From positions 62,001-126,000 of the forward strand of contig NZAC01000001.1 of the NCBI GenBank assembly GCA_002686085.1: 64,000 nucleotides of DNA. The letters are read 5' to 3'. Positions 31,030 through 64,000 of this stretch are shown here, one piece after another. A program made the translations under genes and the position numbers. The notes under the pieces were generated by a model. It saw nothing but the letters and a program-made list of their open reading frames with translations, searched no databases and was not told the DNA's origin. This stretch comes from Roseibacillus sp. (GTDB taxonomy: Bacteria > Verrucomicrobiota > Verrucomicrobiia > Verrucomicrobiales > Akkermansiaceae). Every line of letters starts with the position of its first letter. Within the stretch, counting starts at the first letter, position 1.

Positions 31030-31815
31030 GTGAGTGAGGATCTCCTAGAGATTGGAGGACGGGAATTTCGTTCCCGCTTGCTCTTGGGCACCGGCAAGTT
31101 CGGCTCTCCGGAATTGATGAAGGAAGCGCTTGTCGCATCTGGCACTGAAATCGTGACGGTCGCCCTCCGAAGGGCGGATATGACTGGCGGTCATGATCCA
31201 TTTGCCAACATCCTGGAATTTGTCGACCCCGAGACCTATCTGCTGTTGGCTAACACGAGCGGAGCCATGAATGCAGATGAAGCCGTTAGGCTTGCCAGGC
31301 TTGCTGAGGCGGCGGGTCTGCCGAAATGGATCAAGCTTGAGATTCACCCTGACCCCACCTATCTGCTTCCAGATCCGGTCGAGACTCTTAAAGCGGCCGA
31401 GATACTGGTGGCTGAAGGGTTTACGGTTCTTCCCTATATTAATGCGGACCCCGTATTGGCGAAGCGCCTCGAAGATGTGGGGGTTGCTACCGTAATGCCT
31501 CTGGGAGCTCCCATTGGATCCAATATGGGTCTTGTGACGAGGGATCAGATTCGCATCATCATTGAGCAGGCAACGGTGCCGGTTATCGTCGATGCTGGTA
31601 TCGGTGCGCCGAGCCATGCTGCAGAAGCTTCCGAGATGGGAGCCGCCGCGGTTCTGGTAAATACCGCAATAGCGGTTGCTGGCGATCCGCCTGCGATGGC
31701 ATTAGCCTTTAAAGATGCCGTTGATGCAGGACGCCGTGCCTTTAACGCCGGACTGCCGATGCAGAGTGAGAAAGCGGAGGCCACAAGTCCTTTAACCGGG
31801 TTTCTCGGCAACTGA
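31030..31815 (+). CDS. thiG: Thiazole synthase
   Basis: Builds the thiazole phosphate half of thiamine from DXP, dehydroglycine or iminoacetate, and ThiS-thiocarboxylate. The 261 residues start from GTG, with [19 protein letters not shown] sequence [41 protein letters not shown], the active-site region [32 protein letters not shown] and [31 protein letters not shown]. No thiS (sulfur carrier) ORF was seen beside it. The ThiF/MoeB-like activator encoded 1.3 kb downstream on the opposite strand could serve this pathway. Confidence 0.96.
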
Positions 31816-33086: not shown

Positions 33087-34208
33087 CTACGGTTGAATCA
33101 CTGGGCCACCTAGTCGCATCCAATCCATGATGCCGCCCCCCAGGTTGGTCACGTCGTTAAATCCTGCATCAAGCATCAGCGTTCCAGCGTGGGCACTTCG
33201 CTGCCCCACCTTGCAGTAGACAAGGTATGGAACGTCACGCGGAAGTTCCTCGAGGTGTTTTGTTAATTGACTGAGTGGTGCGAGTCTGCACCCTTCCAGG
33301 TGGGCCCAGGCGTGTTCAGAGGGTTCCCGGACGTCAAGCAGGATGCCGTGAAAGCCCTCTCGCATGAGACCCAATGCTTCAGTCGCGCTAATCTCCTTCA
33401 ACCCTTTGGTTTCGGTGGGGCTGTTCGGTGTAGCTCCGGGGCTGATAATGGTTGGAGCGTTGCCACAGAGTTCACAAGATGGATCTGGTTTAAGGGATAT
33501 TTCCCGCATGCGTGCGTTAGTTGCATCGTAATGAAGCATCCGCCCGGCAAGAGTTTCTCCATGCCCTGTGAGGATCTTAATGGCTTCCATCGCCTGAAGG
33601 GTCCCGATCACGCCGGGAAGAGCGCCAAGGACGCCTGCCTCTTCTCATGTAGGCACAGTGCCGGGCGGGGGAGGTTCTGGAAGGAGACAGCGGTAGCAAG
33701 GGGAGTGCAGAGCTGGATCAAAGACGGTGAGCTGGCCTTCAAACTGATGAATTGCGCCGGCGACGAGGGGTTTGCCGAGGAGCCATGCGGCATCCGCAAC
33801 CAGAAACCGGGTCGGAAAGTTGTCAGAGCCGTCAAGGATCAGATCGTATTGCCTGAAGAGAGCCATGATGTTGTCCTTCTCGAGTCGTCTGGGGTGGACT
33901 TCAAGACAGACATCGGAGTTCAGGTTCGTAAGCCGCTGTGAGGCACTCTGGACCTTTGGTTGGCCGACAGATCGTTCGTCGTGAAGGATCTGGCGCTGGA
34001 GATTCGATAAATCAACGGTATCGTCGTCTAGAATGCCCAGGCGCCCGATACCTGCTGCAGCGAGATAAAGCGCTGCCGGGGATCCGAGTCCGCCAGCTCC
34101 GACACACAGAGCGGAGCCGTTGCGAAGTGCGGTCTGCCCCTCCATCCCAAAGCCTGATAGGCTAAAATGGCGTTCATAGCGCTCTTGCTCGCGATCGGTG
34201 AACATCAC
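33087..34208 (-). CDS. ThiF/MoeB-type adenylyltransferase with rhodanese domain, probable selenoprotein (in-frame TGA at 33645-33647)
   Basis: An E1-like enzyme that adenylates the C-terminal glycine of a ThiS/MoaD-type sulfur carrier, fused to a rhodanese domain, as in MoeZ/MOCS3/Uba4. Read through one TGA it is 373 residues. Visible: ATP-binding VGAGGLGSPAALYLAAAGIG, DDDTVDLSNLQRQILH, LDGSDNFPTRFLVADA, zinc knuckles CYRC and CELC, and in the rhodanese part LLDVREPSEHAWAHL and the active loop VYCKVGQRS. The TGA is residue 188, in VPT-TGA-EEAGVLGALPGVIG, where homologues have VPSC-AEAGVLG. That cysteine is the thioester/acyl-disulfide residue (Cys184 of E. coli ThiF, Cys187 of MoeB). Frame and conservation are intact on both sides, and selB lies in the window. 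Conventional callers would give two ORFs, 33645-34208 and 33087-33611. Alternatives are a nonsense mutation or a sequencing error. Confidence 0.85.
33602..33647 (-). promoter_or_regulatory. Putative Sec UGA codon with candidate bacterial SECIS hairpins
   Basis: Read on the minus strand, TGA (33647-33645) is followed immediately by GAAGAG...CTCTTC, a 6-bp stem (33644-33617) with further internal pairing GC/GC and AGG/CCT. Overlapping it at the base is a second hairpin, TCCCG/CGGGA with the 7-base loop GCGTGAT (33618-33602). That loop starts 31 bases after the TGA and has G as its first base. From memory, bacterial SECIS models need an apical loop about 16-37 bases after UGA with a G in the first two loop positions, which the second hairpin satisfies. 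Pairings were found by eye, without energy calculation. Confidence 0.5.
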
Positions 34209-34279
34209 TTAAACTGGGTGTGATAGTTACTCCGTTTTCACTTCACGGCAAGCGTCAGGTATTTTATCCCGACAGGGTA

Positions 34280-34861
34280 ATGTCAGAGGTTCATTCCACA
34301 TTTCGTCTTCGGCCGGGTGATATAGCACCTGAATTCCAGCTTCCAGATCCCGACGGGCAAATTCATACTCTAGCCCAGTTAAGGGGCGAGCAGGGAGTAT
34401 TAGTGATTTTCGCCTGTAACCACTGCCCCTATGTAATCCACCTTGCAGATGCGGTCGGGCAGATGGCGAAGGAGGTTGCCCACAAGGGGGTCAACACGGT
34501 CGCCATCATGTCGAATGACGTTAAGAATTACCCTGATGATCACCCCGATTTGATGGGGGGCTTTGCCGATAAGTTTGGTTGGTCGTTCCCCTATCTTTAT
34601 GATGAGAATCAAGAAGTAGCGAAGGCATGGTCAGCGGCCTGTACACCTGACTTTTTCCTGCTCGATGCTGCTGGGAAGCTCTTTTACGCCGGACAGTTTG
34701 ACGATTCACGCCCTAAAAGTGGGAAAGAGGCTACCGGAAGTGACATGCGTTATGCGATTGAACGCCTGACAGCAGGAGATGAAGCGCCGAAGGATCCATT
34801 CCCGAGTAGCGGATGTAATATCAAATGGAAGGACGGTAATGAGCCGTCCTATTTTGGGTAG
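34280..34861 (+). CDS. Thioredoxin-like (AhpC/TSA-fold) protein
   Basis: 193 residues from an ATG preceded by AGGG; the frame is open to a GTG at 34220, but the later start has the better ribosome binding site. The sequence has a peroxiredoxin/thioredoxin fold: GDIAPEFQLPDPDGQIHTLAQL, VLVIFACNHCPYVIHL with the CxxC pair Cys-Asn-His-Cys, IMSNDVKNYPDDHPD and the cis-Pro region CTPDFFLLDAAGKLFY. This group of cytoplasmic redoxins is widespread and functionally uncharacterised. It is divergent from the proposed seleno-ThiF gene with only 71 bases between them, so a redox link is possible but unproven. Confidence 0.85.
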   Translation: MSEVHSTFRLRPGDIAPEFQLPDPDGQIHTLAQLRGEQGVLVIFACNHCPYVIHLADAVGQMAKEVAHKGVNTVAIMSNDVKNYPDDHPDLMGGFADKFGWSFPYLYDENQEVAKAWSAACTPDFFLLDAAGKLFYAGQFDDSRPKSGKEATGSDMRYAIERLTAGDEAPKDPFPSSGCNIKWKDGNEPSYFG

Positions 34862-62679: not shown

Positions 62680-64000
62680 ACAGCACTTTATTCTTGGGAC
62701 TGCGGGTCATATTGATCATGGCAAATCCTCTCTGGTGAGGGCTCTTACGGGCACTGATCCCGATCGCCTGCCGGAAGAGCAACGCAGAGGTGTGACAATT
62801 GAATTGGGCTTTGCGCACCTGACGCTGCCAAATCCCGCGGGGCAAGGAAGCGTCATGGAACTTGGGATCGTGGATGTTCCTGGTCATGCAGATTTCGTCA
62901 ATAACATGGTTGCCGGTGTGGGCGGAATGGATGTGGCCCTTTTTGTGGTGGCTGCTGATGACGGTTGGATGCCTCAATCTGAAGAGCACCTTCATATCCT
63001 GACCTATCTGGGAATTGAAAGGACTGTTGTTGCTCTCACTAAATCTGATCTAGCAGAGGACCTCGAGTTCTCGTTGGAGTTCGTGAAGGATGGCCTCAGT
63101 GGCACCATTTTGGAACAGGCTCCTGTGATCCCCGTTTCGTCAACGACCGGAGAGGGCATTGATGTTCTTCGTGAGGCTTTAAGAACCCAGCTCGAGAACG
63201 CTCCTTCTGCCCCGAACTTCGGCAAGCCAGTTCTCCCAGTGGATCGGGCCTTTTCGGTGAAAGGAATAGGAACGGTCGTTACCGGAACGCTTTCGGGGGG
63301 CGCCCTGGATGTTGGAGATCAACTCACCCTTCAGCCATCTGGGCTCAGCACTCATGTCCGGGCTATTCAGAATCATAGTGCCGCGATTGAGCGAGCTGAG
63401 CCTGGTATGCGGACTGCCCTCAGTGTTCCTGATCTCCACGTTGGGACAAGGGAGCGGCAAGGGGTCCGAAGAGGAACCCTTCTAACGGCTGTTGGGGCCT
63501 CGCCACCCCATGACACCATTAACATTCAGGTCACAAGAATGGAGCGGGCTATTCCGGGGCAGCTAGGGACAAAGCGCGATCTTCCCTCAGGAAGAAGGAT
63601 CAGGGTGCACCATGGCTCAGGAGTTATAGGCGCCCGTATGTTCCTCATAGAGCAAAAGTCGTTATCTCCCGGGGAGGTGGCGTTCGCGCAGCTCCGACTG
63701 GATGAGCCACACGCAATGATGGTTGGGGATCGCCTTGTTCTGCGGGACTGGTCAGGAGAGGCAACCCTTGGAGGAGGAGTAATTCTTGATGCTGCTGCCA
63801 GTCGAAAAAAAATAGGAAGTGAGGAGCAAATTCGCTTTCTCAGAACCCGTGCTGATGGTTTTGGAGATCTTTCGCTTCTGCTGGCATCCGTGATCGAGCG
63901 AGACCGCCTCGTTGATATTGCTGAGGAGGCCTCAAGGTTCAGATTTTCAGACCAGGAGGTGGATGCCACTGTGAAGGCAATGTTGACTGCGGAGAGGATT
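62669..64000 (+). CDS. selB: Selenocysteine-specific translation elongation factor SelB (3' part missing)
   Basis: GTPase that delivers Sec-tRNA(Sec) to UGA codons marked by a SECIS hairpin. 444 codons are visible, open to the window edge. The N terminus is [47 protein letters not shown]1 AGHIDHGKS, and the DRLPEExxRGxTIxLGFA stretch that separates SelB from EF-Tu. G3 is [12 protein letters not shown] and G4 is TKSD. Domains 2 and 3 follow ([17 protein letters not shown]...), and the start of the winged-helix mRNA-binding part is reached near the edge. The ATG overlaps the end of the infA-like gene. It implies that selA, selC and selD exist elsewhere in this genome. Confidence 0.95.

Follow-up and report, generated by a model that had tools for sequence, protein, structure and literature searches.

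Probable selenocysteine at the family cysteine of a Uba4-like E1 enzyme

The window, that is, the whole 64,000-nucleotide stretch of Roseibacillus sp. DNA that was analysed, contains a gene for a Uba4-like E1 enzyme that is very probably a selenoprotein (probability about 0.93), UGA codon 188 being decoded as selenocysteine (Sec) by way of a downstream hairpin. The initial annotation had read two adjacent open reading frames as one gene broken by a single TGA, and this was confirmed: the minus-strand frame 33087-34208 reads through, and the TGA at codon 188 is its sole lesion before the TAG stop (Table 1). The GTG that opens this frame is probably not the start; the next codon, an ATG, is preferred because relatives begin at that ATG. 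The read-through product has 373 residues, with a ThiF domain (PF00899, residues 11-246, 2e-78) followed by a rhodanese domain (PF00581, residues 275-364, 4e-13) that carries its active-site cysteine, which is the layout of Uba4/MOCS3.

Table 1. Predicted features of the Sec-containing gene and related genes in the window
Feature	Coordinates	Strand	Remarks
Sec-containing MoeB/ThiF-type E1-like adenylyltransferase with C-terminal rhodanese	33087..34205	-	ATG 34205 preferred; upstream GTG 34208
UGA codon 188, predicted Sec	33645..33647	-	aligns with MoeB Cys187 / ThiF Cys184 / C. thermophilum Uba4 Cys202
ThiF/E1 adenylation domain, residues 11-246	33469..34178	-	PF00899; CxxC...CxxC zinc motif C171, C174, C245, C248
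Rhodanese domain, residues 275-364	33115..33386	-	PF00581; active-site Cys332 (YCKVGQRS)
Predicted SECIS apical hairpin UCCCG-GCGUGAU-CGGGA	33602..33618	-	loop start 31 nt after UGA; codon conservation
Redoxin/AhpC-TSA protein, divergent neighbour	34220..34861	+	conserved beside MoeB in Akkermansiaceae
thiG, thiazole synthase using ThiS thiocarboxylate	31030..31815	+	PF05690 1e-102; two genes off, opposite strand
selB (HMM match; gene extends beyond match)	62690..63811	+	TIGR00475 281 bits, cut-off 242

In HMMER alignments the TGA codon fell on the cysteine of E. coli MoeB (TCVEAGV), E. coli ThiF (NCRTAGV) and Chaetomium Uba4 (SCGEAGI), so that the TGA does replace the family cysteine, as had been proposed. 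The E. coli residues are, in the numbering that we assume, Cys187 of MoeB and Cys184 of ThiF. The Chaetomium residue is Cys202 (PMC12954526). Among 29 aligned homologues the residue-188 column was always Cys or Sec and never Trp, and the four zinc cysteines and rhodanese C332 were invariant. An AlphaFold model of the protein had a mean pLDDT of 89 and matched MoeB (TMt 0.97), ThiF (TMt 0.96) and Uba4 (rank 1) in the PDB. Around Sec188 the pLDDT fell to 58-70, which would be expected of a mobile loop. The position of Sec188, in the crossing loop, corresponds to that of the thioester cysteine of Uba4.

The protein passed the cut-off of the MoeB subfamily model PRK05690 (NF004281; 306.8 vs 266). 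It scored below those of the ThiF equivalog TIGR02356 (243.3 vs 275.25), the MoeB equivalogs NF006444 (417 vs 449) and TIGR02355 (223.8 vs 376.55), and the MoeZ equivalog, and the carrier therefore cannot be named from these models. The Cys-containing orthologue in G297, a genome of the same genus, cleared the NF006444 cut-off (451.7).

Conservation of the UGA codon and the Sec machinery

A close homologue was found in 12 of the 15 genomes of the window's genus. Eleven of these twelve, the window's included, had TGA at codon 188 without any other stop, and the twelfth, G297, had TGC. TGA was also found at codon 188 in G253, from another Akkermansiaceae genus, and the remaining class homologues inspected had Cys at residue 188. 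Because 11 congeneric species and a member of a second genus all have the TGA at the identical column, sequencing error or chance can be excluded. The initial annotation had also argued against a decaying pseudogene, and the relatives compared agree with this, showing no random stops or frameshifts within the conserved region. Five further genomes of the class considered as UGA forms (G223, G278, G210, G176 and G180) were rejected, their codon 188 being TGC and their internal TGA or TAG lying near the C-terminus instead.

In the closer pairs dN/dS was approximately 0.1 both upstream and downstream of the TGA, indicating that the downstream half is translated. The Cys gene of G297 is a positional orthologue, encoded between ftsW and trpD, and the genus homologues were at the same locus where this was checked. 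G297 also encodes tRNA-Sec, SelA, SelB and SelD; together with the shared locus, this indicates a natural Sec/Cys pair.

The genome that contains the window (3.95 Mb, 96% complete) encodes tRNA-Sec with a TCA anticodon, SelA (503 bits), SelB (281 bits) and SelD (369 bits). The gene for SelB is in the window itself, as had been noted from the sequence. SelD in this genome (L055, G000:C20) is a Sec protein too, its gene likewise containing an in-frame TGA. Elsewhere in the genome TGA serves as an ordinary stop, ending 12 of the 25 genes checked.

A predicted SECIS hairpin downstream of the UGA codon

The hairpin came to light through comparative codon analysis rather than through single-sequence folding: for segments of 48, 60 and 91 nt around the UGA, predicted stability was not above that of shuffled sequences (z of +0.7 to +0.9). 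Synonymous codon identity, as the mean over pairs of the 11 Sec species, was 0.48 for the gene vs 1.0 at each of codons 197-202 (CTT CCC GGC GTG ATC GGG), and the 16-codon windows covering this region ranked highest of all. The value for codons 195-204 was reached in none of 20,000 random draws, the region having been picked after the data were seen. The Cys species G297 departs from the others at three of these six frozen codons.

All five pairs of the hairpin were kept in each of the 10 distinct genus sequences, vs 56-61% of cells in the other Sec and Cys sets. Within the genus the hairpin was invariant except for one U-A/U-G pair, so that covariation could not be used there and the case is one of conservation. 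The hairpin lies just 3' of the UGA and its small apical loop contains a guanosine, which is how the SECIS is characterized in PMC1088965. A comparable hairpin was found in the SelD gene of the window's genome (GCGCA-GGUUC-UGCGC), its loop starting approximately 32 nt after the UGA, and was conserved in congeners.

Most of the other Sec-MoeB genes found in this study have an earlier hairpin, CUGGG-CGUGCU-CCCAG, with the loop 20 nt after the UGA and with A-U, G-U and G-C variants. Pairing in that register was mostly absent from the window's genus (57%), and a loop core, CGUG[CA]U, was common to both kinds of hairpin. Relative to the majority of these genes, the SECIS of the genus is thus about 11 nt further downstream, and the shifted hairpin offers a natural system for asking how much displacement of the SECIS SelB can accept.

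These data bear on two other ways of reading codon 188, both very improbable. The UGA might be a true stop, leaving a split gene that yields two polypeptides or a young pseudogene; TGA is ordinarily a stop in this genome, and a GTG lies 12 codons further on. However, in 12 species the catalytic codon itself is TGA and the gene has no further lesion, purifying selection persists and synonymous sites are frozen downstream of it, and in G297 the Cys orthologue of this locus is a single protein. Near-cognate read-through occurs in bacteria, and the codon might accordingly be read as a standard amino acid, whether Trp, Cys or some other, instead of Sec. Such a reading has equally little to recommend it, given a complete Sec system in the same genome, a homologue column that holds Cys and never Trp, and SECIS-like conservation that is specific to the UGA forms. 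None of the checks that were run refuted decoding as Sec, the interpretation given in the initial annotation.

Relation to known Sec-MoeB proteins and E1 enzymes

The initial annotation had mentioned a Sec-containing MoeB from a marine metagenomic survey, and the precedent is real. MoeB was named as a new selenoprotein family, with 11 sequences, in the 2005 Sargasso Sea study (PMC1088965), and appeared again in 2008, with 19 sequences, in the GOS study (PMC2398784). It is included in current catalogues and reviews (PMC9312934, PMC13188914); no experimental work on Sec-MoeB was found in the literature searched. The Sec-MoeB family is thus already known, and the window's gene is a well-supported member of it, having a ThiF/MoeB domain with Sec at the conserved Cys; the likeness is one of domain and of Sec/Cys pairing. 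In the portions available, the two published reports share with the present gene the MoeB/ThiF family (COG0476, PF00899), a Sec paired to Cys and a bacterial SECIS; they describe environmental sequences and give no function, whereas the present sequences are from near-complete genomes and add a C-terminal rhodanese fusion and, within the genus, a Cys orthologue that occupies this very locus. What is new here is this Cys/Sec swap within a genus, the shifted SECIS, tree evidence for more than one origin of Sec, and operons resembling those of cysteine biosynthesis in some phyla.

Among characterized enzymes, Uba4/MOCS3 has the same domain order, was the best fold match in the PDB, and in C. thermophilum has Cys202 aligned to residue 188. 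The window's enzyme differs in being bacterial, in having Sec for Cys and in presumably serving a bacterial sulfur carrier, no Urm1 being known here. E. coli MoeB and ThiF share the adenylation domain, the zinc cysteines and the carrier-activating fold (TMt 0.96-0.97), but have no fused rhodanese and have Cys187 and Cys184, respectively, at this position.

Most selenoproteins of known function are redox enzymes. This protein is instead an E1-like enzyme of the ubiquitin-pathway type, with Sec at a residue whose role differs or is debated (thioester, acyl disulfide or protection) among MoeB, ThiF and Uba4. The genus, in which a single locus naturally holds the Sec form in most species and the Cys form in another, provides a ready pair for probing residue 188.

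Genomic context and candidate sulfur carriers

The genome encodes several sulfur carriers and genes of the corresponding pathways: ThiS adjoining ThiH, thiG in the window, a MobA-MoaD fusion with MoaE, MoaC- and MoeA-like genes, and TcdA. No other E1-like protein found in this genome combines the catalytic residue with a rhodanese, so that the Sec enzyme probably activates ThiS and/or MoaD. Operon linkage of the gene to thiG was considered and rejected, as thiG is on the other strand and ftsW lies between. The MobA-MoaD fusion is a single protein (L220:2871-3701, G000:C14), and open frames of similar length beside MoaE in congeners suggest that it is common to the genus. A second MoeB-like E1 (L217:3571-4696, G000:C7) is without the catalytic cysteine (FPVIGAVSATM); its partner is a third carrier, MoaD/SAMP1-like and ending in SGG.

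A redoxin gene was divergently encoded beside MoeB in all of the Sec congeners and also beside Cys forms of the family (L007-L011); it was not found beside MoeB in the Cys congener G297.

Proposed role of Sec188

Under the proposed mechanism, SelB and tRNA-Sec would decode UGA 188 as Sec, guided by the hairpin whose loop lies 31 nt after the UGA. The N-terminal domain would adenylate the C-terminal glycine of a ubiquitin-fold sulfur carrier, presumably ThiS and/or the MobA-fused MoaD, and the persulfide on rhodanese Cys332 would be the sulfur donor. Sec188 could attack the acyl-adenylate to form a transient selenoester before the thiocarboxylated carrier departs; alternatively, it could form or resolve an acyl-selenosulfide with the rhodanese sulfur before carrier release. 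Compared with Cys, Sec would be expected to make the thioester-type step faster and its disulfides more readily reduced. That Sec chemistry serves carrier activation is somewhat favoured on present evidence, and within that setting Sec188 most likely acts as the nucleophile.

The initial annotation had described the residue as forming a thioester or acyl disulfide in both ThiF and Uba4. This stands for the Uba4 type, for which the thioester is established; ThiF and MoeB reportedly form none (2026 review, PMC12954526). According to the same review, the Uba4 cysteine takes up the carrier as a thioester, promotes thiocarboxylation without being essential and shields the enzyme from its product; that Uba4 thiocarboxylates Urm1 even without the thioester, and that ThiF and MoeB are said to form none, were counted against a catalytic need (PMC12954526). 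The protein might thus be a selenoprotein in which Sec188 is a redox switch or shield and not an acyl carrier, either forming a selenylsulfide with the rhodanese Cys or a small thiol or guarding against self-conjugation by the thiocarboxylated carrier. The dispensability and protective role of the Uba4 cysteine are in its favour, as is the redoxin gene beside MoeB in the Sec congeners, but that gene also adjoins Cys forms and so is not tied to Sec, and none of the aligned homologues has anything but Cys or Sec at this residue. Such a role is possible, though less probable than one for Sec188 in carrier activation.

Distribution and history of the Sec forms

The motif V/A-P-x-UGA-x-E/Q-A/G-G-V-L-G was used to scan 84,980 species genomes for the UGA form. 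At least 116 further stretches were found, and each of the 116 listed was a ThiF/MoeB homologue whose frame is open to either side of the UGA. Phyla among the matches listed were Poribacteria, Rokubacteria/Methylomirabilota, Verrucomicrobiota, Actinomycetota, Myxococcota/Thermodesulfobacteriota, Latescibacterota, Tectomicrobia, Planctomycetota, Chloroflexota, Gemmatimonadota, Nitrospinota and SAR324. Sec-MoeB is therefore far more widely spread than the few environmental entries imply, and standard annotation would truncate or split such genes. The rhodanese domain was N-terminal in some of these proteins, such as that of Entotheonella, whereas in Verrucomicrobiota and SAR324 it was, as judged by eye, C-terminal.

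In a tree of 85 proteins inferred with IQ-TREE, with the Sec column masked, the Sec forms of the genus made up one clade (100/98), to which the G297 Cys form was sister (100/100). Other Akkermansiaceae Sec forms and those of the remaining phyla fell in separate groups, requiring at least four changes of state. Forcing the genus and the other Akkermansiaceae Sec forms together was rejected (p-AU 0.00017, for a group named after the first tree had been seen). The tree and the differing SECIS position favour separate gains of Sec from Cys, though Sec may instead have been ancestral and later lost. One Akkermansiaceae Sec-MoeB (L185) was outside the main Akkermansiaceae Sec clade and is a possible further separate gain. 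A broader proposal, for and against which the case is evenly balanced, is that Sec has been gained repeatedly at the crossing-loop residue of these E1 enzymes, with a SECIS built separately in each lineage, because it betters covalent carrier activation through a selenoester or acyl-selenosulfide; the window's genus would then represent a recent gain, with its Cys sister at the same locus.

In Chloroflexota, deltaproteobacterial (Thermodesulfobacteriota/Myxococcota) and planctomycete loci, Sec-MoeB was encoded with ThiS-fold carriers, PLP-dependent synthases or JAB proteases (L088, L102, L080, L100, L133, L134, L167, L183 and L111), and some of the ThiS-fold carriers were fused to NIL domains. 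We take this gene set to be the CysO-CysM-Mec pattern, in which cysteine is made by way of a protein thiocarboxylate; no such genes were found beside the gene in the window. By analogy, the arrangement suggests selenium-dependent, thiocarboxylate-based synthesis of cysteine or homocysteine at those loci, and the label 'molybdopterin biosynthesis' is therefore too narrow for the Sec-MoeB family.
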